DNA of 64,000 nt from Candidatus Poseidonia sp. Lineage in GTDB: Archaea > Thermoplasmatota > Poseidoniia > Poseidoniales > Poseidoniaceae. A model generated the notes under the pieces. It had not been told where the DNA came from. It did no database searches and worked only from the letters and a program-made list of their open reading frames with translations. The DNA lies in NCBI GenBank assembly GCA_030829545.1, contig JAURAI010000005.1, positions 76,088 to 140,087 of the forward strand. The letters are read 5' to 3'. Position numbers and translations under genes: made by a program. Below are positions 16,652-29,293 of the stretch, one piece after another (the first letter of the stretch is position 1; each line of letters begins with the position of its first letter).

Positions 16652-18436
16652 ATGTGCGGGATTGGAGGTGTTTTGGGACATCCCCAACCTGCAGTTCTCA
16701 ACCGGATGAATCACCTCCAAAAGCATCGTGGACCCGACGAGCAATCCACGTGGGTGGACCATCATGTTGGCTTTGCACACACACGACTCGCCATCCTTGA
16801 TGTCGATGGCAGTCAGCAGCCCATCAGTGCGCCCAATGGAAGCGTTTTGATCGTCAATGGTGAAATCTACAATCACGAAGTGATACGACACTCATATCCT
16901 CACTATCCTTTCAGCACTGCAGGAGATAGCGAAGCGATTCTTGCACTTCATGCAGCATCAAGGCCGACATCTGGCAAACCAAGTGCCCAAGATCATGCCA
17001 ACTGGCTTGGGATGCTCGATGGCATGTATGCCTTGGCACTGTGGGATGCTCAACACGAACAATTGATTTTAGCACGAGACCCGATGGGAATCAAACCACT
17101 CATGCGAACTCAAATTGACGGTGACATGCTTTTTGCGAGTGAAGCCAAGGCATTTCATGCCGATGAGCGATACACGCCTCAATTGGACGAACTTGCGTTT
17201 GCTGCGCGTTTGGTCTGGGAATATCCGCTCGACGCTACAACGCTGCTCAAAGGAGTTCACCATGTTCGTCCAGGTACCGTTGAAGTTTGGAGCACCAATC
17301 AACACGGAGAGGCTTCGTGTAGAGGAGTCGCTAAAATTGAGCGACAAGCGATGAAACCAGCGAAAGCATGGGACCCTTCTCACCAAGCCGAACCTTTGCT
17401 GGATTCATTCATCACGAGTGTCCAACAACGCCTGATGGCAGACGTGCCCGTCGGCATCGTTCTCTCAGGGGGCCTTGACTCGAGTCTCGTAGCAGCAGTA
17501 GCCCATGAAGCGGCACAGCGAGCAGACCAACCTGTCCCTGAATGCTGGACGGTAGCTGAAAGCGAAGAGAACCCCGATTGGATAGCAGCAGAACATGTCG
17601 CCTCGCATTTTGATCTTCGTCATCACCAACACATCCTAGAACAAGACGCCTTTGAACAACGATTGCCACAACTCGTCTGGCATGGAGAAGATATTGATGT
17701 AACGGTTCTCTTCTTCAACCCACTCTTTGAACACATGTCCCGCCATGTCAAGGTCGGATTGTGCGGTCAAGGAGCCGATGAATTGCATGCAGGGTATCCA
17801 CGCTACGGCCAACTCGCCGACCACAACAACGCCCTCCAAGAGCGGATGCAAGCCCTTCCTGATGTGATGCGACAACAATTGGAACAGGGAAGACTGAAGT
17901 CAGAAGAAGGCTGGTTTCTTGACCGTCACCAGCCGCAAGAACATACCAAGGACCTACAGACCATGCTTGACTTCGAGTTGAATCACGGGCAATTGAGTAA
18001 TTTCCAACTCCGACTGGTTGACCGTCACTCGATGGCTCATTCATTGGAAGTCCGTGTCCCTTTCTTGGGCAGTGAGCACCGAAAGGAGACCTATGCCCTC
18101 CCGATGGACTGGCGACGAAGCCAACAACGAGAAGAAAAGGCCGCATTACGCAGGGCAGCTGACCTCACAGACCTTCCCAAAGACATCGTTCGAAGACCCA
18201 AACTCCCTGCGGGCCGGGCTACATCACCGACCATGCTCAACACCTTCCTTGACCAGTATTCCGCTCAGACCGAGGAATTGATGGAACGTTACAATACATG
18301 GGCCCCCGCCTTGAAAGGACAAGAAGAGTTATCGCTGGGGCTTGGACTCTTTGAGGCGTTGCACCTTCAGGAGGGCGGTTATACGAAGGTCAATCGAAGC
18401 GTCCATGATTTGTTAAATGAGGTGATTGAATGCTAG
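16652..18436 (+). CDS. asnB: asparagine synthetase B-like (glutamine-hydrolysing)
   Basis: N-terminal MCGIGGVLG with Cys2; 'NHLQKHRGPDEQS'; 'PVGIVLSGGLDSSLVAAVAHEAA' PP-loop; 'VGLCGQGADELHAGYPRY'. Confidence 0.9.
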   Translation: MCGIGGVLGHPQPAVLNRMNHLQKHRGPDEQSTWVDHHVGFAHTRLAILDVDGSQQPISAPNGSVLIVNGEIYNHEVIRHSYPHYPFSTAGDSEAILALHAASRPTSGKPSAQDHANWLGMLDGMYALALWDAQHEQLILARDPMGIKPLMRTQIDGDMLFASEAKAFHADERYTPQLDELAFAARLVWEYPLDATTLLKGVHHVRPGTVEVWSTNQHGEASCRGVAKIERQAMKPAKAWDPSHQAEPLLDSFITSVQQRLMADVPVGIVLSGGLDSSLVAAVAHEAAQRADQPVPECWTVAESEENPDWIAAEHVASHFDLRHHQHILEQDAFEQRLPQLVWHGEDIDVTVLFFNPLFEHMSRHVKVGLCGQGADELHAGYPRYGQLADHNNALQERMQALPDVMRQQLEQGRLKSEEGWFLDRHQPQEHTKDLQTMLDFELNHGQLSNFQLRLVDRHSMAHSLEVRVPFLGSEHRKETYALPMDWRRSQQREEKAALRRAADLTDLPKDIVRRPKLPAGRATSPTMLNTFLDQYSAQTEELMERYNTWAPALKGQEELSLGLGLFEALHLQEGGYTKVNRSVHDLLNEVIEC

Positions 18437-19635
18437 GTTTGCAGTCCACAAAGAAGCGAATTGAGGAGAAGCGTGAAGACATCACCGCTTGGATGAAAGT
18501 CAAACGCAGTGAAGTCGCCATTCCGATTTACGGCAGTGTTGACATTCGGGATGCTGGCTGGAAAGTCGGAGTCGTTGATGCCAACCACTTCCCCGCGGGA
18601 TTCAACAATATTTCACAGCATGATTTTGATGAATTGGCGCATCTGTTCGCCGAGCACATCCATCAGAATCATCCCGACTGTGGCTGGGTTCATATTTTCC
18701 CCGAAAGTCACACAAGGAACCAAGGCTATGTCGAAAATATCATCACCATCAAGCGGCTCATTGAGCAAGCAGGTTTCCGATGTACGGTCGGGTCACGCGA
18801 CCTTGATGAATTCGGCACATTGCACGGAATTTCTGGCCCTCTCAAATTGGATTTGGTTCAGTTGGACGACAATGGAGAGTTGAACGTTGATGGCCAATGT
18901 CCTGACTTGATTCTCCTCAATAACGACCTTACTGGAGGAACGATCCCTGGCCTCCAAACAACCAATGTCTCACCACCGGCTGAAATGGGTTGGCACGTCA
19001 GGAGGAAATCAGAACATTATGCCTGCCTCCAACCCTATGTAGAAGAAATTGCGGCACTCTTGGACATCGACCCGTGGCATATGATGCCCCGTTGGTTTGT
19101 TTCAGAAAACAAGTGTCTCACCGAAGATGCTTGCCGAATCAAACTCGCTGCAGAAATTGATGAATTTCTGGCCTCCATCCAAACGAAGTATGATGAGTTA
19201 GGTATTGAGGAAAAGCCCTTCGCAGTTATGAAAAATGATAGTGGCACGTACGGATTAGGCATTCTTATTTTGGAATCGGGGGATGCTATTTTGAATCTCT
19301 CAAACAGAAAAATCAACAAGTTGCGGTACGCTAAAGGTGGAAGCGATGTTGAAAACTTCCTGATCCAGGAGGGCATCCCTACAAACATGATCACAGAAGA
19401 CGGAGCTCCTGTTGAACCCGTAGGTTACCTCGTTGGAGGGGAGGCTGCCGCATGGTTTTATCGAATCAATCCAAAGAAATCCGCCCGGGACAATCTCAAC
19501 TCACCAAGTGCGATTTTCACCAGTGCTTCAGAAGCGACACAGAGATACGGTGAGCATTCAGAGACATGGCACGCTTTGCTCGCAGAGTTGAGCATGCTGG
19601 CCATGGGAGCAGAAGCAGCCCTTCGAGGGAAGTAA
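18430..19635 (+). CDS. glutamate-cysteine ligase-like protein (GshA, Acidithiobacillus/proteobacterial type)
   Basis: 'PIYGSVDIRDAGWKVGVVDANHFPAGFNNIS', 'MKNDSGTYGLGILILESG', 'LIQEGIPTNM' resemble the GshA family (Pfam GshA). Overlaps asnB by 7 nt. Confidence 0.7.
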   Translation: MLGLQSTKKRIEEKREDITAWMKVKRSEVAIPIYGSVDIRDAGWKVGVVDANHFPAGFNNISQHDFDELAHLFAEHIHQNHPDCGWVHIFPESHTRNQGYVENIITIKRLIEQAGFRCTVGSRDLDEFGTLHGISGPLKLDLVQLDDNGELNVDGQCPDLILLNNDLTGGTIPGLQTTNVSPPAEMGWHVRRKSEHYACLQPYVEEIAALLDIDPWHMMPRWFVSENKCLTEDACRIKLAAEIDEFLASIQTKYDELGIEEKPFAVMKNDSGTYGLGILILESGDAILNLSNRKINKLRYAKGGSDVENFLIQEGIPTNMITEDGAPVEPVGYLVGGEAAAWFYRINPKKSARDNLNSPSAIFTSASEATQRYGEHSETWHALLAELSMLAMGAEAALRGK

Positions 19636-19636
19636 G

Positions 19637-20674
19637 ATGGCAACCGTACACTGCTTGGGATGTGGTTTAGTTGGCGATTATGTCGCCCGACTGTTGGCTG
19701 AAGCAGGACATGAAGTCCATGCCTATGACCTCACAAAGCGCGATATTGCGGGCGTCAAGGTTCACGTTGGAGATGTATTCACTCAACTCAAAACACTTCC
19801 AGAAGGGTTGGTCATCAACATGTTGCCCGGAGATTTTGGACACCAGGCTACCCGTGAATTGGTTCACCTCGGGCGCAAGATTGTCGACCTGTCATTCGCA
19901 GAGCAAACTCCTGATGTACTCCAAGAAGATGCACTTAGTAAGGGTGCAACCGTTGTTTGGGATGTAGGCATAGCACCGGGTTTTTCCAACCTCTTGGTGG
20001 CGCAAGCCTTGAGAGATCAAGGTCGGGTCGATGATGTTCAAATCAGAGTCGGAGGAAATCCAACCAAACCCGACGGCAATTGGTCGTACATGGCCCCATT
20101 TTCGCCCTACGATGTCATTGCAGAATACACCCGGCCCGCTCGAATCATCAGTGATGGCGTGACCGTCGTTCGTCCGGCTCTTGACCAACGACATCGAATT
20201 ACTGTCAGTGGGCGAGGTGAAATGGAAGCCTTCCTTTCGGATGGTTTGCGTTCACTGTTGTGGACTGTTCCCGCTCAATCAATGGCGGAATATACCGTCC
20301 GCTGGCCGGGTCACATCCAACGTTATATCGACATGAAAAATGAGGGGACGCTGGACCCAGAAACATTGGTGCAGTCATGGGCACTGGATCCAACCAAAGG
20401 AGAATTCACCTGGATGGAAGTTCTCTTGACCGCTAACGGCGAAGTAATTCGTTGGACGGTGGAAGACGACGGGAAAGGAAGCGATTCATCGATGGCACGA
20501 ACCACAGGTCTGGTTACAACTGCGGTTGCTCTTCAGTGGCTTGAAACCCCCGAATCAATTCCTGTCGGTGTCCACGCACCCGAAGAATTGCCACCTGTAT
20601 TTCTCGAACGAGCAAGTGAACTGTTTCGCGAACACGGAGTGCAAGTTCACATGACCTCTCCCCGCACAGACTGA
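19637..20674 (+). CDS. saccharopine dehydrogenase-like NAD(P)-binding oxidoreductase
   Basis: Rossmann 'VHCLGCGLVGDYVARLLAEAGHEVHAYDL' and 'DVGIAPGFSNLLVAQALRD' typical of Lys9-like proteins. Confidence 0.75.
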   Translation: MATVHCLGCGLVGDYVARLLAEAGHEVHAYDLTKRDIAGVKVHVGDVFTQLKTLPEGLVINMLPGDFGHQATRELVHLGRKIVDLSFAEQTPDVLQEDALSKGATVVWDVGIAPGFSNLLVAQALRDQGRVDDVQIRVGGNPTKPDGNWSYMAPFSPYDVIAEYTRPARIISDGVTVVRPALDQRHRITVSGRGEMEAFLSDGLRSLLWTVPAQSMAEYTVRWPGHIQRYIDMKNEGTLDPETLVQSWALDPTKGEFTWMEVLLTANGEVIRWTVEDDGKGSDSSMARTTGLVTTAVALQWLETPESIPVGVHAPEELPPVFLERASELFREHGVQVHMTSPRTD

Positions 20675-20698: not shown

Positions 20699-21373
20699 AT
20701 GAACCGTTCCCTTTGGTACATCCTTACGATTGCCATTGGATTGTGGGTTTCGGCTACTGCCTGCGCTGGTTTGCTACCCGATGCTTGGGCTGAATGGCCC
20801 GTCAATATCTGGTGTTGGGGATTGTTCTCCTTCATCTACCTCAGAACTGACCGGAAGGAACGAATTGAGATGCTCACCGTCATTGCTATCGCTACGCCAA
20901 TGGAGCTCTTTTTCTCAGAAATATGGCTTGTGTATGAGTATCAACGCGATTTCATGCCCCTCTTTGTTTCCGCTGGCCATTATTTCCTCTTTGACCTGGG
21001 TCGCAGGATTGCCATAGCCTTGCCCGAACGTATGGCTTTTCCCATATTGATGCCATTCGTACCGCTTGTCGCCTATGGAGTTTGGACGGGTGGAGACACC
21101 TCTGCTCCGTTCCTGCTTGTCCTGGTATTGGCATTCACACAATGGGGGCCTCAACCCCGCCTTTATGCCTCAATGGCTTGGGCTGCTTTGGGAATGGAAT
21201 TACTGGGGACATACCTGAATAATTGGACTTGGGCAACCGACGTCCCATGGACCTCGCTCACTGCTTGGAACCCTCCCCTCTTGGTAGGTGCGTTCTACTG
21301 TTTTGGTGATGTATTAGTGAACCTGTGCGTTGCCAAGTTTCAAGGGGAACCGCCGCTGGAGGTTGTACCATGA
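20699..21373 (+). CDS. integral membrane protein
   Basis: 224-aa ORF with several hydrophobic helices; overlaps the next start. Confidence 0.6.
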   Translation: MNRSLWYILTIAIGLWVSATACAGLLPDAWAEWPVNIWCWGLFSFIYLRTDRKERIEMLTVIAIATPMELFFSEIWLVYEYQRDFMPLFVSAGHYFLFDLGRRIAIALPERMAFPILMPFVPLVAYGVWTGGDTSAPFLLVLVLAFTQWGPQPRLYASMAWAALGMELLGTYLNNWTWATDVPWTSLTAWNPPLLVGAFYCFGDVLVNLCVAKFQGEPPLEVVP

Positions 21374-21702
21374 CCGGCGTTGACGAACTGCGCAAACGCC
21401 GCGAAGAAGAGGCACTGCGCATCCGAACTGCACTGAATAGGCAGCGAGGAGAGCAACGTGCAAATACAAAGGGTGGCGAAGGTACCGTTGCTTTTGTTGA
21501 AGAACGAAAGTGCATCGGATGTGACCAGTGTACCATTGTTTGCGACGATGATGCCATTGAACTCTATCACCTCGATGTGAAGAGTCCGCTCATGTCGGTC
21601 GAAAGCAATCGGAAAGCGATGATCATCCGTGACGCTTGCACTGGATGCCGGTTGTGCGTCCTTGCATGTCCAACCGACGCCATCACAATGATTGACCGAT
21701 AA
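21370..21702 (+). CDS. 2[4Fe-4S] ferredoxin-domain protein
   Basis: 'CIGCDQCTIVCDDDAI' and 'CTGCRLCVLACPTDAI'. ATG at 21370 (MTGVDELRKRREEE). Confidence 0.88.
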   Translation: MTGVDELRKRREEEALRIRTALNRQRGEQRANTKGGEGTVAFVEERKCIGCDQCTIVCDDDAIELYHLDVKSPLMSVESNRKAMIIRDACTGCRLCVLACPTDAITMIDR

Positions 21703-21713
21703 GAGGTGAACAC

Positions 21714-22001
21714 ATGTCAAAGAAAGGAAAAGACCCGTCTGCACAACGCTTTGGTGGCGAATTCGGCCCCTATCGCAAACCTGGAACCACTGGCGTGAGC
21801 CTCTCAAATTTCAAAACGCTCGTTTGGGTATCAAACATCGGAGGTTTGTTGTTGGTGGTCCTCGCACTTGAATTGCTCTTCGTCCAGCACAACTTCACAT
21901 GGGGATTTCTTTCCCTCGTGATCGGTGTTGCTATTGCACTCTTCCCTTCGAATTACGAAATCGTCGGCATGAGTGACGACGATGCTGAAGACGGAAATTG
22001 A
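21714..22001 (+). CDS. small two-TM membrane protein
   Basis: 95-aa ORF with two hydrophobic segments, adjacent to ferredoxin and bc operon. Confidence 0.55.
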   Translation: MSKKGKDPSAQRFGGEFGPYRKPGTTGVSLSNFKTLVWVSNIGGLLLVVLALELLFVQHNFTWGFLSLVIGVAIALFPSNYEIVGMSDDDAEDGN

Positions 22002-22003
22002 AT

Positions 22004-24814
22004 TCAAGCTTCAGCAGGTTCTTGGACTTGGGTTTCTCCAGCCACCTGTGCTTTCTTCTCGTTGACTTGGCGAGCGAGGAATGACACGACGTCAAGGATT
22101 TCAATGTCCTCGTAGGCTTCATCGCCTTCAAACTTCAAACACTCAAAGTGAGAAACACACTTGGGACAGGATGTGAGCATGGTATCAGCACCTGTTGCAC
22201 GAACTTCTTCCATTCGAGTCACACGCAGGGAGCGTGCATTCTCGTTGCAGGACATCATGCTTGAAACACCACAGCACATGGCATCCTCGCCACTGTGCTC
22301 CATCTCGACAATCTCAACACCTTCGACTGCATTGATGAGTTCACGTGGTTCGTCGTAGATGCCCATTTGGCGACCAAGTCGACAAGGGTCGTGGTAGGTC
22401 ACCGTCGTTTCTTCAGATTTGAGGTTCATGTCAAAGCCTTGTTCAATCAAGAATTCAGTTGTGTGCATGACCTTAACGTCTTCAAGTTCGTAATCTCGAG
22501 CAAAGGTTCGGAAACACTCAGCACAAGAGGACACGAGGGTGTCAATACCCGATTCGTTGATCTTGCGCTGGTTGTAAGCTTTCAACTTCTCAAAGACTTC
22601 ATCCAAACCTTGCCACTTTTGGTCGTGACCACAGCACTTGAGGAAGTCTCGACCGAGGTAGGCAACATCTGTTTCCATCTCTTCAAAGAGTGTGAATGCA
22701 GCGGTCGTTGTATCCCCGAGGTTCATGCTTCCTTCATTGACGTGGGAAAACACCATTTCTTGGTCCAAGTAGTCAACGCAACCGGGATAGTAGCCGATGT
22801 TGGAGGTGATGGGGTACTCTTCTGTAGGGATGAATTCCTCATCCGCAGCTTCCTCAGCCTCAGCGTTGAGGACTGCTTGCAAGACGGTGTGGGGAATCTC
22901 TGCTTGGGGTCCACCGACAATCAGGCTTCGTCGGATATCAACATAGGAGTCGTAATCCACGAGTTGAGGGCAAGCATTGGTACATGCCGTACATGTAAGA
23001 CACGAATACAGAGGCACACCATCGTCTTCATTATTCCAAGAGTTGTAGATGATGTTGAGTTTGTCTCCACCGTTGAAAAGGCGAATTGGACAAGCGTCGT
23101 CACAAAGGTCACAGCCGTAGCACTTGTTCATTTCGAACTCATATCCACGGGCCATGTATCGGAGCAAAACGAAGACCAAGGCTCCGAAGGTGACACATGG
23201 AATGAACATTGCATAGGTCAACTTGGCGTCCAATGCTTTCGGGTTCTGGTGGTAGGTTGGATTTTCAATGTACGAGAAGGAGTCGCCTCCAAGAGCCATT
23301 TCTTCGCTGTTGGTGAGGTTGACCGTGTGGCCAGCAAGACCGGCAGGTGCATCCTCGCTCCAAATCAGCAGAGGCTGGAAACTTGCGATGGTGAACGCAG
23401 TTTCGGTCGAAATGCTCTGATTGAGGGCAAGTGGTCCGCTCACAACAACGTCGTAGGAGTAATCGTAGGTTCCAACGGTCATCTCAACGGTTGCACCTTC
23501 GCAATTTGCAAACGAAACTACTTCCTTTCCGTTGGCGTTGGTAACTGTAAGGGTGGTAGCGACCATCGTCTGGGTAGATACATCGTTGATTTTACGCTCG
23601 CTCGAGCGGAATTCGCAAGAGAGGTCGGTCGTGATGCTCTCTACTTCTTCAGGGTGGCCTTCGGGGAAGTAATCCAAGTCCTCAGTGATTGTGAAATTAC
23701 CAGTGACTGACCATCCATCTCCACCGTTGAAGGTGGTACTGTCTGCTGCGGCGTTGATACCATTTGCTGGATCTTGATGCCCGTTGGCATCAGAGAAATC
23801 GGTAATGATGTATCTTGCTGGCTGGTAGATATTCCAGTCCAACCATGCCACGGTTGGCACGACTCCGCTTTCTGACCAGCCTCGGTCGTCAGTGAATTCG
23901 TTGACGTCATGGACATGGACATCGGTAGGTTGAGTGCGCATGGCTTCCAATTCCCCGTAGTCCTTGATTGTCAGAAGGCCCTTTGCCTCCCAGAATCCGT
24001 TGTCATAGGTATCGTAGGTAGCCACGGTTGCGGCTGATGAGATAATCAGGGCACCGACGATCAGTTGGCGGCTCTTGGCAACGGTAAATCCTGTACCCCA
24101 AGCACGAATGAGCAAACCACGGCCAATGAAGTAGACACAAATCCACATCAGAATACCGGTCATGACCCACGGTATCGAATTGAATACGTCAGCAATCCAA
24201 GGTTCTCTTGTACCACACAACAGGTCACCGTGCGAATCAAGTTTACAGAAATCGGACCGATTTTTGCCGTAGAGCTCAAGGAAAATATTGATTGAGAAAA
24301 CGGAGATGAACCAAATGTGAGCGAGATAGACTGCACCAGCGGCTGCGAACCAAGGGTCTTCCACTGGTCGCTTTTCACGTCCACCGAGGAAAGGAGGAAG
24401 GGCAAGAATACCGACAGGAATACCTGTGAGAGCAGCGCCCCACCATGCAGCGTTCCATGGGAACATAGGTTGGCCTACAATTTCGCCAATAAAGCCTGTG
24501 GGAACCACAAATTGAGGGAGATATTCTCCCCATCGGAGGTATCCATATGAAAACAGAACATACCAGTCGGGGAATACAAAGCCTGCCTGAGCGTAGGGGT
24601 CCGCTGCACCGTGAAGTGGCGGAGGAATGAGCCATGCATAAAAGAGGAGAATGGAGAGCATGGACGCAAAGATGATGCTGTCACGCAACACTTCGTGCGG
24701 CCAGAATCCGTGACCCGTACGGGTACGCTTCCTCTTTTCTTCCGCCTTTTGGAGCTGTTCCTTTTCTTCCATGTAGAGCGAAGCTACACGGCCAAAGTTA
24801 TCGATTAATCCCAT
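22004..24814 (-). CDS. fusion: cytochrome b C-terminal/subunit-IV-like membrane domain + large loop + HdrD-like Fe-S/CCG domain
   Basis: N-terminus with multiple TMs and 'PPLHGAADPYAQAGFVFPDWYVLFSYGYLR' (subunit IV-like). C-terminus 'CYGCDLCDDACP', 'CLTCTACTNACP', two CCG motifs 'CCGHDQKW...SSCAECF' and 'MCCGVSSMMSC...TSCPKC'. Continuous 936-aa ORF. Confidence 0.85.
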   Translation of the reverse strand: MGLIDNFGRVASLYMEEKEQLQKAEEKRKRTRTGHGFWPHEVLRDSIIFASMLSILLFYAWLIPPPLHGAADPYAQAGFVFPDWYVLFSYGYLRWGEYLPQFVVPTGFIGEIVGQPMFPWNAAWWGAALTGIPVGILALPPFLGGREKRPVEDPWFAAAGAVYLAHIWFISVFSINIFLELYGKNRSDFCKLDSHGDLLCGTREPWIADVFNSIPWVMTGILMWICVYFIGRGLLIRAWGTGFTVAKSRQLIVGALIISSAATVATYDTYDNGFWEAKGLLTIKDYGELEAMRTQPTDVHVHDVNEFTDDRGWSESGVVPTVAWLDWNIYQPARYIITDFSDANGHQDPANGINAAADSTTFNGGDGWSVTGNFTITEDLDYFPEGHPEEVESITTDLSCEFRSSERKINDVSTQTMVATTLTVTNANGKEVVSFANCEGATVEMTVGTYDYSYDVVVSGPLALNQSISTETAFTIASFQPLLIWSEDAPAGLAGHTVNLTNSEEMALGGDSFSYIENPTYHQNPKALDAKLTYAMFIPCVTFGALVFVLLRYMARGYEFEMNKCYGCDLCDDACPIRLFNGGDKLNIIYNSWNNEDDGVPLYSCLTCTACTNACPQLVDYDSYVDIRRSLIVGGPQAEIPHTVLQAVLNAEAEEAADEEFIPTEEYPITSNIGYYPGCVDYLDQEMVFSHVNEGSMNLGDTTTAAFTLFEEMETDVAYLGRDFLKCCGHDQKWQGLDEVFEKLKAYNQRKINESGIDTLVSSCAECFRTFARDYELEDVKVMHTTEFLIEQGFDMNLKSEETTVTYHDPCRLGRQMGIYDEPRELINAVEGVEIVEMEHSGEDAMCCGVSSMMSCNENARSLRVTRMEEVRATGADTMLTSCPKCVSHFECLKFEGDEAYEDIEILDVVSFLARQVNEKKAQVAGETQVQEPAEA

Positions 24815-24829
24815 AATTACTCCTCCGTA

Positions 24830-25696
24830 TCAATGTGGCTCCGCAATACCTTGTACCCAAACGATGAACAAATGTATGATGATGAGCGTTGTGACGATCA
24901 CTGGAAGAATGAATACGTGAATGAAGTACATTCGTGTAACGGTGAGTGGCGTCAATTCTGAACCTGAAAACAGGAGCGTTGCGATGTATTTCCCGACCAG
25001 TGGACTTGAGTTCGCGAGATTGATTCCAATGATAGCCGCACCGTAGGCCAGGCTGTCCCATGGGAGGAGATAACCGGAATAACCGAACACGATGGTCAGA
25101 GCCATCAGGGCTACACCGATGAGCCAGTTGAGTTCACGTGGGTTACGGTAAGCGCCGGTGAAGTAAACACGGCACATGTGAAGGAATACGCTGGCGACCA
25201 TGAAGTGAGTTGTCCAGTGGTGCACGGCACGCAAGATATAGCCAAAGGGCAATTCTGTCATGATGTATTGCATGCTTGCATAAGCCGGTGAAGGGTCACC
25301 TTCGCCACCTGGCACGTAATAGATCCCGAGGACTGTACCCGTGATGACGAGGATGATGAAAGAAAGGAAGGAGATACCACCCAAACAATAGAGGGGGTAC
25401 CAATACCAAATGATTCGAAGTTTGTACTTCTCTGCGTGAGTTAACGGCATTTGGCGGTGCATGTTGTAGTAGGCACCCTTGGACATATTCCAGTAGTCTT
25501 GAAGCCTGAAACGTGTGTCCAGCCAAGAAAACACCCAGAGGAAGGAACGCTCTGCCACTCCCATCTTGCCAGTGGATTCAACAGCACGCAAGATGTCTCG
25601 ACGAGGCATCTCTTCGTTCTCCTTGCGCAGCGTAAACGCCACGAGAAGAACGAGGAAGACGATGAAGAACCACAAAACCCAGAACATTGTTGTCAT
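24830..25696 (-). CDS. cytochrome b6-like (N-terminal cytochrome b)
   Basis: Helix B 'HHWTTHFMVASVFLHMCR' and helix D 'HVFILPVIVTTLIIIH' (14 residues between His, b6f-like); 'GYSGYLLPWDSLAYGAAI'. Confidence 0.9.
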   Translation of the reverse strand: MTTMFWVLWFFIVFLVLLVAFTLRKENEEMPRRDILRAVESTGKMGVAERSFLWVFSWLDTRFRLQDYWNMSKGAYYNMHRQMPLTHAEKYKLRIIWYWYPLYCLGGISFLSFIILVITGTVLGIYYVPGGEGDPSPAYASMQYIMTELPFGYILRAVHHWTTHFMVASVFLHMCRVYFTGAYRNPRELNWLIGVALMALTIVFGYSGYLLPWDSLAYGAAIIGINLANSSPLVGKYIATLLFSGSELTPLTVTRMYFIHVFILPVIVTTLIIIHLFIVWVQGIAEPH

Positions 25697-25705
25697 TTCT
25701 TCACC

Positions 25706-26551
25706 TCAGTCACAATAAGTATACCAGTCAACATAATCTGGCAATCCTTCGATGTTATCACCGTTGAGTTGGATAGGGATGATGGGCAACCCGACAGGAG
25801 CAGGGCCACCTGAACGACGGATACCAGCATATTGGAAGGTAGCCCCGTTGGAACGGTTTCTGTTCGTATTCATTTCCAAAACAGTTGGGTCAAATCGGGA
25901 CGAATGGCAAATGCAGAACAATTTCGTACCTCCGTCATCTCCACCACCTGGCGTCCATGAATCTTCAGTAAAGGAATTTGAAACAAGTTGCCATCCTGGA
26001 ATACAACACAAGTGAGTACAACGGCCAAAGACCATCACGAGATCTTCGCTGGGCATCAAACGAGGGTCGGCTTCAGCCAAATCATCGAAGTGTCCGACGT
26101 ATTTCCCTGTCTCGTCGATTCCTTCTGTAAATTGGAAGCGGGCTTTTCCGTTGGATTCAATCGTGCCAGCGTTCTTGGAGTGCTCAACATACATCACGAC
26201 GACGGGAACACCGTTCCAAACTCCAGATGCACCAGAGGTACCGGTAGAAGAAAGAGCCGCTTCATTTTTGAAATCAGTTTTTGTCATGGGTTGCAAGTGC
26301 TTCGCACCGTACCATGCCTCGTCTTCTCTGCCTTTGGCCCAAAACTGGACGGCTAAATCACCGCCACCTGTCGCACCGGGTGGAAGAAGAATTGAGGCGA
26401 AGCCGAGTATACCAAGCGAAGCAGTCAACACACCTGCGGCAGTGTTGAATCCGTATCGAAGGAATTGCCGACGATTGACGCTCGTGGTGGTTCCAGCGAG
26501 GCTATCTCCTTCAACAGATGGTGCTGGTTTGAGTTCATATTCACGTGCCAT
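25706..26551 (-). CDS. Rieske [2Fe-2S] protein
   Basis: 'CTHLCCIPGW' ... 'FCICHSSRFDP' Rieske ligand motifs; Tat/TM-like N-terminus 'NRRQFLRYGFNTAAGVLTASLGILGFA'. Confidence 0.9.
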   Translation of the reverse strand: MAREYELKPAPSVEGDSLAGTTTSVNRRQFLRYGFNTAAGVLTASLGILGFASILLPPGATGGGDLAVQFWAKGREDEAWYGAKHLQPMTKTDFKNEAALSSTGTSGASGVWNGVPVVVMYVEHSKNAGTIESNGKARFQFTEGIDETGKYVGHFDDLAEADPRLMPSEDLVMVFGRCTHLCCIPGWQLVSNSFTEDSWTPGGGDDGGTKLFCICHSSRFDPTVLEMNTNRNRSNGATFQYAGIRRSGGPAPVGLPIIPIQLNGDNIEGLPDYVDWYTYCD

Positions 26552-26557
26552 TGGTCA

Positions 26558-27004
26558 TCACCACTTGTACTCTCGCCAGTCTTTCTGGTGTTCAGGAATG
26601 AACTTGTTTTGAGCGTGCTTGACAATAATTGTGTCAGGAAGGATGTACTTGAGGTAAATCACACCAATCATAATCACCGTGGTGAAGGTCATGGCCAGAT
26701 GGAACGAGAGTTGTTGTTGGTCCCAGCCTTGAGCAAGACCGTATACCATCGAGAAACTCCAATAGCAAATCCAGAAGAGCCCCCATGCAAGGAAAAACAT
26801 GGTGAGGTAGGATGCTCCTGATGGCGCCAGTGAGGCGCTTACAATCGTTCCGGGTTCAGCGACGTTAAAGACACCGTGATCGATTGCAGAGGACATTTGA
26901 TCCTCTGTCAATTCTGCTCCTTCGAGTGCAACACGTGCATCGTCAACGGGGATTGAGCCGTCGGCTACCCCTCGCAATAAGGTAGTAATGGTGTCATCCA
27001 TCAT
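26558..27004 (-). CDS. membrane subunit of the bc-type complex operon (hypothetical)
   Basis: 148-aa ORF with two TM helices, 4-nt overlap with the upstream gene, within the operon. Confidence 0.55.
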   Translation of the reverse strand: MMDDTITTLLRGVADGSIPVDDARVALEGAELTEDQMSSAIDHGVFNVAEPGTIVSASLAPSGASYLTMFFLAWGLFWICYWSFSMVYGLAQGWDQQQLSFHLAMTFTTVIMIGVIYLKYILPDTIIVKHAQNKFIPEHQKDWREYKW

Positions 27005-27846
27005 TGATCACCTCGTCGGTTCAATTTGTATCGCAAACGCAATTGATTGCTGCGTCCTTTGTATGAGGTAGAGAAACCATAGCGTAGCAAGAGTCCTGCA
27101 AAGATAATGACGCCAATCACTGCTCCAAAGCCGAGAAGCCCAAGCCAGTGTGCACGGAGTTTTGCACCCATGTGGTGAAGGTCAACGCCGTGGTGAGCAG
27201 GTTCGGGAGGTGCCACATTCCCATCTCCAGCGAAGAGGGTCCTCGTGCCCATGGCTACAGAGGATTCATCCCCTTCAGTAAGAGCAAAGTTCAGCTGATT
27301 CCATCGGTCTTCGACACCAGGAATTTGGTCGCCATTGACCGAATTACCAGCGATCCAAAAGTTGGCAGGTCCAGCACCGGCTTCCGTAGGTGCGGTCCAT
27401 TCTAGCGTCCATGAACGGTCTGCATTGGCTGCAGAGGCTTCGGTGTGCGTGAGTGATTGAGGGTCAAGTGCCCCGTCAATTTCCCAGTTCTGAGCCTCAT
27501 CGCTGGCGAGTGAGCCGAGTGATGCTCGCATCGAGAAGCCAGCGGTGTACGTGCCAGTTGCCTCAGGACCTCCGATGAGTTGAAGCACGAGCGTGTAGGT
27601 TTCTCCTGCGGCCCAAGCATAGGGCACGTCGTCCAAGATGACTTGGACGGAATTGTCAGCGACTTCGTTGTGGCAGAGACAACCCGATTTTGCAACATCG
27701 TCGATGTCAACTTGACCGGTCGAACCCTGATGACTTTGAGAGCCACCAATGCCGCCGTGATACGATGAGGCGAGAGATGGGAGAAGCAACAAGAGCCCTA
27801 CCATAGCCAGCAGCGTGGTACGGTATTTGCGGGAAGTTTTGTGCAC
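27001..27846 (-). CDS. secreted/anchored protein with CLCH motif, reeler/choice-of-anchor-V-like, C-terminal TM
   Basis: Signal peptide, 'VAKSGCLCHNEV', beta-rich domain with 'AGFSMRASLGSL', C-terminal TM 'WLGLLGFGAVIGVIIFAGLLL'. Confidence 0.55.
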   Translation of the reverse strand: MHKTSRKYRTTLLAMVGLLLLLPSLASSYHGGIGGSQSHQGSTGQVDIDDVAKSGCLCHNEVADNSVQVILDDVPYAWAAGETYTLVLQLIGGPEATGTYTAGFSMRASLGSLASDEAQNWEIDGALDPQSLTHTEASAANADRSWTLEWTAPTEAGAGPANFWIAGNSVNGDQIPGVEDRWNQLNFALTEGDESSVAMGTRTLFAGDGNVAPPEPAHHGVDLHHMGAKLRAHWLGLLGFGAVIGVIIFAGLLLRYGFSTSYKGRSNQLRLRYKLNRRGDQ

Positions 27847-28009: not shown

Positions 28010-28339
28010 ATGAACCGAGCCTTGCCCTACATGAGCGCCATGACCGACCATGCATTTGAGAACACGTATGACCTCTCTGACAAGCAATTGCAACAACTCG
28101 ATGATGCTGAAGAATTGATGCTCAAGGGTTCGCTTGGTGCTGCAGAAACCATGCTTTTGAGCATGTTGAAAGGCGACGAAGAATGCATCCCTGTACTTTC
28201 AAATCTCGGTCACCTTTACGGCCGTTATCTCTCCGAATTCGAAACCGCCATCGAGTACTACGACAGAGTTCTTGCCATCGAACCCGACAACGCATGGGCA
28301 CGAGATGCACGACGACGTTACCTACGTTACATCGATTGA
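28010..28339 (+). CDS. TPR-repeat protein
   Basis: 'AEELMLKGSLGAAETMLLSML...VLSNLGHLYGRYLSEFETAIEYYDRVLAIEPDNAWARDARRR' matches TPR consensus. Confidence 0.75.
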   Translation: MNRALPYMSAMTDHAFENTYDLSDKQLQQLDDAEELMLKGSLGAAETMLLSMLKGDEECIPVLSNLGHLYGRYLSEFETAIEYYDRVLAIEPDNAWARDARRRYLRYID

Positions 28340-28363
28340 TTACCAACACCAAAGTTCATTGAG

Positions 28364-29293
28364 ATGCCGCCCTCAGTAGGTGGCATGGACCCGTCCAACA
28401 TCCTCATCGCAGGAGTCGGGGGCATCGGATGTTCATGGGCTCACCAAGCCCACCTACGATGCGGCATGGGCGCCCACTTGGCACTTGTTGATGCAGACGA
28501 CTCCAGTTTCAAAACCGGTGAGAATACTCACATTCTACGCCTTGGCCACGCCCTTGATGAGAACGGATGTGCAGCCCTACCCCCGCTTGCTGAACAGCGC
28601 ATGCGAGGGTTGGCCAACCTAACGAACCTTTTGTTCAAATCCACCGAATTGGTGATTCTCCTTACCGGGCTAGGAGGCGGCGTTGGCACAGGAGCAGCAC
28701 ACGAATTTGCTCGTCAAGCACGCCAGTCAGGAGCCATTGTTCTTGCAGTGGCAGGATTGCCCTTCGAGTCACAACCCGCACGAGCCGCCATTGCGGAAGA
28801 CGGCCTTGCTCGCCTTGAGCATGTTGCGCACGTCACCGTTCGTCTTTCGCTTGAACGCTTGGCTCGGCAAGCGAGGGAGCGTGGGCAAATGTGGCAAATG
28901 GGTGCGGAATGGATTGAAGATCTCGTTGACGGATTGGTTCGAACACTCATGCGCATGGGCCTCATCAATCTTGACTTGATGGACCTGCGGGCTATTGTTG
29001 ACCAAGTGGGCGGAGCCACCATGCTGGTCGGCGTCGGGCGCCCAGACGACCCCAAGGGAATCCTCGAATCTGCCCTTAAGGCCCCGTTAGCCGCCATGGA
29101 CGTCAGCGGAGCCAAAGGATGCTTGATTCAAGTCGAGGGTGGCCTGGGGATGACCATTGGGCAGGTTGACGCCGTGACGGCTCTCTTCACAAGCGCTCTT
29201 GATGACGATGCTCAAGTGATCCTCGGAGCAAGAGTGAGCGAGGATCTGGTCGATACCATTCGGGTCGTAACCTTACTATCAGGAATCAGTTGA
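28364..29293 (+). CDS. divergent FtsZ/tubulin-family GTPase
   Basis: 'ILIAGVGGIGCSWAH', 'LLTGLGGGVGTGAAHEFARQAR' (FtsZ GGGTGTG variant), T7-like loop 'GLINLDLMDLRAIVDQVGGATMLVGVGR'. Confidence 0.75.
   Translation: MPPSVGGMDPSNILIAGVGGIGCSWAHQAHLRCGMGAHLALVDADDSSFKTGENTHILRLGHALDENGCAALPPLAEQRMRGLANLTNLLFKSTELVILLTGLGGGVGTGAAHEFARQARQSGAIVLAVAGLPFESQPARAAIAEDGLARLEHVAHVTVRLSLERLARQARERGQMWQMGAEWIEDLVDGLVRTLMRMGLINLDLMDLRAIVDQVGGATMLVGVGRPDDPKGILESALKAPLAAMDVSGAKGCLIQVEGGLGMTIGQVDAVTALFTSALDDDAQVILGARVSEDLVDTIRVVTLLSGIS

Follow-up and report, generated by a model that had tools for sequence, protein, structure and literature searches.

What is a heterodisulfide reductase (Hdr)-type iron-sulfur module doing at the end of a quinol-oxidizing complex? 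The question is raised by a stretch of 64,000 nucleotides from Candidatus Poseidonia sp. of the order Poseidoniales (Marine Group II, MGII, in the phylum Thermoplasmatota; assembly GCA_030829545.1, contig JAURAI010000005.1; this whole stretch is the window, G000:C1:76088-140087 in our collection), in which one gene, here called A, encodes a subunit IV-like membrane domain fused to two [4Fe-4S] and two CCG motifs. A is the last gene of a minus-strand Rieske/cytochrome b operon with the order E-D-C-B-A, and two further genes, F and G, adjoin it. A preliminary description of the locus had proposed a bc-type complex that hard-wires quinol chemistry to a cytoplasmic CCG reductase, perhaps a disulfide reductase or a bifurcating device. 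The fused subunit IV/Hdr-type protein is confirmed, and that interpretation as a whole is partly supported. The strongest functional clue, which the preliminary description had missed, is the adjoining ferredoxin gene F, which in Marine Group III (MGIII) archaea is fused to a zinc-ferredoxin or flavodoxin domain. We suspect, at about an even chance, that A-G make up a complex of the b6f type in which a port for cytoplasmic ferredoxin or flavodoxin leads via HdrC-like clusters to the quinone site on the N side.

The reading frame of A (22004-24814, minus strand) starts with ATG and runs for 936 amino acids (aa) without an internal stop. Its parts, including transmembrane (TM) helices, are as follows.

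22004..24814, minus strand: A, fusion of subunit IV, two [4Fe-4S] and two CCG motifs, 936 aa
24263..24712, minus strand: subunit IV core of A, residues 35-184, three TM helices (PDB profile, PF00032 in homologues, model helices)
24560..24571, minus strand: Qo-site PDWY motif of A (PEWY equivalent), residues 82-85 (alignment)
24002..24202, minus strand: extra TM hairpin of A, residues 205-271 (comparison with relatives, model)
23237..24001, minus strand: predicted extracytoplasmic beta domain of A, residues 272-526 (AlphaFold2 model)
23147..23236, minus strand: last TM helix of A, residues 527-556, running into the Fe-S domain (model)
22970..23122, minus strand: two cubane 4Fe-4S motifs of A, C565-C615, HdrC-like (conservation, HdrC PDB matches)
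22514..22780, minus strand: first CCG motif of A, C679, C727, C728, C764 and C767 (alignment)
22157..22384, minus strand: second CCG motif of A, C811, C847, C848, C883 and C886 (alignment)

The reading of A as a single unbroken frame with two 4Fe-4S and two CCG motifs holds in Pfam, where CCG matches two stretches (2.1e-22) and Fer4 domains also score above the cut-off. The first cubane motif is CYGCDLCDDACP (C565-C575) and the second CLTCTACTNACP (C605-C615). Matches to A were found in 58 of the 59 genomes searched, with a true orthologue in 57 and only a paralogue in G012, and the fused frame is present at 156 loci, some of which are one genome counted in two collections. The best 80 matches listed from a contig search for A, which speaks to Thermoplasmatota only, all come from Poseidoniales. 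The fusion is intact in a closed genome of 2,064,136 bp (G072), and the matches listed include assemblies whose names mark them as single-cell (AH-287-M04, AG-422, AG-457 and AG-404). The closed genome, the single-cell assemblies and many independent metagenome-assembled genomes rule out an assembly or mis-annotation artefact. The preliminary description had expected the same fusion in related genomes with intact ligands, and would have yielded to separate genes in all relatives; instead, the fusion is kept throughout Poseidoniales together with its Fe-S and CCG cysteines. All eight cubane cysteines are invariant in 42 fusions (8/8), as are nine of the ten CCG cysteines (100%), with C728 at 98%.

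A Pfam scan of A alone (P0001) left the subunit IV part without any match. A profile built from 27 homologues of A matches b6f subunit IV in the PDB (2e74_B, 4.9e-5; also 1q90_D) and, in bc1 cytochrome b, the C-terminal half (residues 236-357; 2qjp_A, 2.4e-4). P0011 and P0012, distant homologues that represent two other families, exceed the gathering score of PF00032 (Cytochrom_B_C; 22.5 and 39.3 versus 20.7 bits), and P0012 additionally matches the subunit IV model TIGR01156 (1.4e-7). The PDWY motif is near-invariant in Poseidoniales and in the distant homologues. The profile matches and PF00032 thus bear out the subunit-IV-like N-terminal segment, the point on which a TM region unlike cytochrome b or subunit IV would have undone the original proposal.

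AlphaFold was run on A with 27 sequences (mean predicted local distance difference test score, pLDDT, 66.7) and then with 82 (pLDDT 75.0; predicted template modelling score 0.52). In the second model helices span residues 39-62, 122-143, 154-184, 205-242, 245-271 and 527-562, and the beta domain proper (355-515) lies between helices five and six, with pLDDT of about 90 in its strands (AlphaFold2). Given this helix order and the placement of the beta domain, the Fe-S half would lie across the membrane from the beta domain and the Qo loop. The loop first estimated at about 260 aa, and thought to be probably extracytoplasmic, corresponds in the model to residues ~272-526 (about 255 aa). It bears a weak fold similarity to the GOLD domain, and C400 and C438 within it could form a disulfide. 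We rejected the beta domain as an electron carrier because no metal-ligand set is seen in the alignment. A b haem within A's own TM helices is not supported either: the sole order-conserved TM histidine, His166, is absent from distant homologues. The extra TM hairpin is missing from MGIII and from most stand-alone subunit IV homologues.

The Fe-S half of A matches HdrC structures in the PDB profile search, and the soluble half also fold-matches the HdrB structures 8rwn and 5odc, which agrees with the HdrD-like CCG part initially proposed: it is of Hdr type, with all ligands kept and an Hdr grouping in the tree. The closest solved protein by sequence and fold is Mycobacterium smegmatis EtfD (9ojn; 6e-23 for sequence, 1.6e-13 for fold), which likewise combines a membrane domain, two cubanes and two CCG domains in one chain. 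However, EtfD has a five-helix b-haem domain of its own where A has subunit IV, and its motifs are C-T-G and CPHC with a histidine ligand, whereas A has CCG and CAEC and thus neither the C-T/S-G first motif nor the CPHC histidine. The signature of A (CCGHD, CAEC, CCGVS, CPKC) resembles that of HdrA2-linked HdrCB proteins of other Thermoplasmatota, and the genes adjoining these soluble CCG relatives encode HdrA2. In a CCG-module tree, which holds Thermoplasmatota sequences only and has long branches, the bc-CCG clade is recovered at 99/99 and the EtfD/LutA-like sequences split off at 97/96. On this evidence the CCG module of A groups with HdrA2-linked soluble HdrCB and away from EtfD/LutA, and both ligands and phylogeny would allow disulfide chemistry there. 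The same genome encodes an EtfD-like paralogue (P0015; CSG, CPHC and CPFC motifs), which is probably the electron-transfer flavoprotein (ETF):menaquinone oxidoreductase.

L047:8015-10132 (G000:C21:152014-154131): EtfD-like paralogue with CSG/CPHC motifs

In another genome, G058, a paralogue comes after EtfB-EtfA (locus L064).

The remaining genes of the system are these.

24830..25696, minus strand: B, cytochrome b6-like, 288 aa, haem-ligand H159, H173, H260 and H275 (PF00033, 2.7e-41)
25385..25387, minus strand: Cys104 of B, at the haem c-i (c-n) cysteine position of cytochrome b6 (40/40 in the order)
25706..26551, minus strand: C, Rieske protein with CTHLCC ... CICH boxes (partial TIGR01416 match)
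26558..27004, minus strand: D, small membrane subunit, DUF7318-like (weak Pfam match, 5e-4, below cut-off; conserved place)
27001..27846, minus strand: E, choice-of-anchor V protein with an invariant CXCH (NF041895, 88.9 bits versus a cut-off of 42)
21370..21702, plus strand: F, 2x[4Fe-4S] ferredoxin, RnfB/NuoI-like
21714..22001, plus strand: G, 95 aa, two TM segments, partner of F (conserved place)

With a four-histidine cytochrome b, Rieske boxes and a subunit IV that carries PDWY, the locus has the marks of a Rieske/cytochrome b complex, and the bc-type context suggested from A alone is borne out by its sharing an operon with B and C. The four haem-ligand histidines of B are invariant in 40 sequences of the order and 7 outside it. 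The Rieske ligands of C are kept in 40/40, and its match to TIGR01416 is partial (40.5 bits, under the cut-off of 97.4), with no match in Pfam. Cys104, which we take to be the position of b6 Cys35 from its YCLGG context, probably binds a haem covalently. A cysteine occupies this position in Poseidoniales, G082, G087/G308 and G061, and in one of six relatives with a stand-alone subunit IV, most of which have Ser, Ala or Thr. No cytochrome c1 or f was found in the operon, where E carries its CXCH, possibly an unusual haem c or copper site; haem-c maturation genes exist in the genomes. Nor did the operon contain a multihaem protein. In Poseidoniales it lacks an FAD/NAD(P)-binding subunit, having only F, and HdrA is missing from both the Poseidoniales and the MGIII operon. 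The C-x-C-H of E (not CxxCH) is invariant in 39/39 Poseidoniales and 5/5 MGIII sequences, and CcmF/CcmC-type proteins (PF01578) occur in 40/40 genomes.

F and G face A from the plus strand across a gap of 2 bp. The MGIII form of F begins with a zinc-ferredoxin domain (NF041165) in 8 genomes; in 7 it carries a flavodoxin domain (PF00258, 7.5e-27).

L053:7004-7993 and L050:6666-7505: MGIII variants of F, with a swap of zinc-ferredoxin and flavodoxin domains between close genomes

The exchange of ferredoxin and flavodoxin at one site is strong evidence that F meets a soluble low-potential carrier, and the carrier-domain fusions point to such a carrier as its partner. The swap is possibly an adaptation to iron limitation; separate Zn-ferredoxin-like open reading frames (ORFs) likewise occur in MGIII genomes. 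Judging gene absence by family searches, we found NuoF above the cut-off in 0/69 genomes (weaker matches in 7/69), and POR_N proteins in 64/69; the main electron donor may therefore be ferredoxin, not NADH. This contrasts with an earlier account, in which complex I of MGII was called a canonical NADH dehydrogenase (PMC6336850).

Inspection of about 40 Poseidoniales loci shows the gene order E-D-C-B-A to be conserved, with F and G next to A. In family f2, F and G are mostly downstream of A and co-directional with it; in most of f1 they are convergent with it. G is kept beside F and A in nearly all loci. In MGIII, which belongs to the same class, A is split at the cubane end into a subunit-IV+2[4Fe-4S] protein of 342-378 aa and a CCG protein of ~295 aa, whose first motif reads C-S-G. 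The MGIII operon is thus E-D-C-B-[SIV+2Fe4S]-[CCG]-F-G, with G where seen; a homologue of G closes the operon at L050. The fusion is shorter in two lineages, one from groundwater (G082) and one from cold seeps (G087, G308), and in the latter an HdrA2/MvhD-like ORF (FlpD, 1.4e-17) overlaps the 3' end of A by 4 bp.

L108:757-2292 and L049:5435-6379: HdrA2/MvhD-like ORFs of cold-seep Euryarchaeota CSMAG_327/CSMAG_707

Six further families of the same cytochrome b clade have a subunit IV without the Fe-S module, mostly of about 234-273 aa. These stand-alone proteins end at the fusion junction, as where ...YEFNLNRTYYKVR aligns to ...YEFEMNKCYGCDLCDD of the fused form. In the cytochrome b tree a weakly supported branch (75/57) sets the CCG-bearing complexes apart from the others. 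The sequences fit a single acquisition of the Hdr module behind subunit IV and its later split in MGIII; alternatively, the module may have been lost in the stand-alone families. The stand-alone subunit IV of G079 (L200:5994-7733; 579 aa) has a rear insertion of its own, jelly-roll-like by reading; since this insertion is a different one, insertion in this region happened more than once.

Starting from the architecture, ligands, operon, carrier-domain fusions and relationships of A-G, which the sequences establish, we infer their assembly into one complex, its cofactor content, and the path and direction of its electrons. In this scenario, B and the front of A would form the Qo site, the b haems and the N-side quinone site, and the rear of A would be an HdrC-HdrB module hanging from the last TM helix. 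F and G together would dock ferredoxin or flavodoxin, as a soluble one-electron carrier of low potential, and electrons would pass from F through the HdrC-like cubanes of A to the N-side haem/quinone of B. The HdrB-like double-CCG domain could be a further point where electrons leave or enter, serving a thiol/disulfide or a flavoprotein. 2-Oxoacid:ferredoxin oxidoreductases would load the ferredoxin, and in these aerobes the main flow would then pass from it to menaquinone and finally to O2. We favour inward flow because ferredoxin arises in catabolism, and because it is described as unsettled how aerobic archaea reoxidise zinc-ferredoxin, to which their 2-oxoacid oxidoreductases pass electrons (PMC2946596). 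The cysteine at the haem c-i position in most CCG-bearing complexes fits an N-side wire.

The b6f complex has a four-helix b6 with the haem c-i cysteine, a separate subunit IV, and a proposed N-side ferredoxin input in cyclic flow. In A-G no cytochrome f was found, and the ferredoxin path would be covalently built in.

Several observations weigh against this ferredoxin port. In the window, F lies on the strand opposite to A, and its match to the RnfB model TIGR01944 (51.2 bits) falls under the cut-off of 68.7. The cubane region of A is poorly modelled in both AlphaFold runs, with pLDDT of about 31-51 over residues 551-640, which leaves the path from membrane to clusters without a confident model. 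The Hdr module is retained in MGIII genus g23 although Ser replaces the haem c-i cysteine there; haem c-i therefore cannot be essential, which weakens it as an obligatory link. Transfer from ferredoxin to menaquinone via the N side would also spend energy that complex I could conserve, and the complete CCG sets suggest a substrate that the port leaves unnamed.

The same parts could also run outward. In quinol bifurcation, the Qo site would send one electron to the Rieske protein and O2 and the low-potential one via the b haems to the cubanes, ending at ferredoxin/flavodoxin or at a disulfide at the CCG site, so that cytoplasmic reductant would be made at the cost of respiration. A comparable scheme, outward to NAD(P)+ through bifurcation, was argued for anammox Rieske/cytochrome b complexes (PMC12954380). 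Those complexes (Kuste4569-4574 and Kustd1480-1485), in concept the closest to A-G, resemble it in three respects: their cytochrome b is b6-like, their subunit IV has additional TM helices, and electron exchange with the N-side haems has been proposed for their cytoplasmic Fe-S redox subunit. They differ in their separate FAD/NAD(P) oxidoreductases and multihaem c cytochromes, whereas here an Hdr CCG module is fused to subunit IV and the additional subunit is of the ferredoxin/flavodoxin kind. A has two complete CCG motifs, which it shares with catalytic Hdr but not with EtfD; these motifs and the HdrA2/MvhD-like protein that overlaps A in the cold-seep clade favour bifurcation. However, 2-oxoacid oxidoreductases probably supply reduced ferredoxin already, and the scheme would work only if the b haems had unusually low potentials and the N-side quinone site were suppressed, so we regard it as unlikely, if far from negligible.

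Alternatively, the CCG module might link a cytoplasmic thiol pair or a lipoyl-type carrier to the quinone pool, with F as an accessory. The HdrB fold matches, the ten conserved CCG cysteines and the CCGHD / CxEC / CCGVS / CPKC signature that A shares with its nearest, HdrA2-linked relatives argue for such a thiol/disulfide oxidoreductase. HdrA2B2C2 of Methanosarcina acetivorans, which accepts electrons from ferredoxin (PMC5296606), and HdrA2/MvhD-linked HdrCB resemble A in the CCG/CPKC signature, the cubane pair and their neighbourhood in the tree, and HdrA2B2C2 shares its electron donor with the port we favour. Both this ferredoxin donor and the grouping of A with such modules also speak for the port. 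These modules are soluble and HdrA-dependent, whereas A is anchored to a bc complex. On the membrane side a close parallel is HdrDE, the methanophenazine heterodisulfide reductase, in which HdrD, a fusion of HdrC and HdrB, works with a membrane cytochrome b. HdrE is, however, a b cytochrome without a Rieske partner or Qo site, and coenzymes M and B are not expected here. The first motif of the MGIII protein is C-S-G, and no thiol partner gene lies in the operon, whereas ferredoxin is always present. Paired CCG motifs also occur in GlpC/LdhH/TfrB-type proteins, which have flavoprotein partners. Overall, we consider a thiol/disulfide role decidedly doubtful.

A role as ETF:menaquinone oxidoreductase, in which the CCG module would accept beta-oxidation electrons from EtfAB as in mycobacterial EtfD, is suggested by the top PDB sequence and fold match, and EtfD does link cytoplasmic electrons to menaquinone, as the ferredoxin port would. 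Nevertheless, A lacks the features that define EtfD, namely the C-T-G motif, with Thr where A has the second CCG cysteine, and a histidine, His583, inside the CxxC motif (PMC13083937). Given this ligand pattern, the separate EtfD-like paralogue in the same genome and a tree that sets the two apart, we discard it as the main role of A and consider it improbable altogether. That the fusion is an artefact, or only a structural tether without redox coupling, has nothing in its favour beyond low model confidence in the Fe-S region and is hardly credible beside closed and single-cell genomes, independent assemblies, invariant ligands, and split-gene and stand-alone homologues that occupy the same place in the operon.

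MGII are the most abundant archaea of the surface ocean. They were reported to have cytochrome b and Rieske proteins without a canonical bc1, leaving electron transport unclear, and to carry RnfB without the rest of Rnf (PMC6336850). A hybrid complex III offers one explanation for both. The RnfB model scores above its cut-off in 0/39 genomes and its best match in G000 is F (G000:C1:97496-97837, window 21409-21750); the reported RnfB is probably F, the ferredoxin subunit of the complex. The complex is also a concrete candidate for the reoxidation of ferredoxin in aerobic archaea. If the bifurcation reading were true, MGII would use quinone-based bifurcation to supply a soluble acceptor in the cytoplasm. 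A Rieske/cytochrome b complex with a cytoplasmic port is of a known kind, and the subunit IV-Hdr fusion is apparently undescribed: we found no description in the open literature searched. With stand-alone, split and fused homologues in one phylum, these genomes offer a series in which to ask how a Q-cycle enzyme gains a redox module.

The genes flanking the system, at 16652-20674 and 28010-29293, are conserved in many relatives. By sequence reading only, the upstream neighbours are asparagine-synthetase-like, 401-aa and 345-aa ORFs, and the downstream neighbours are TPR-like and FtsZ/tubulin-like ORFs.

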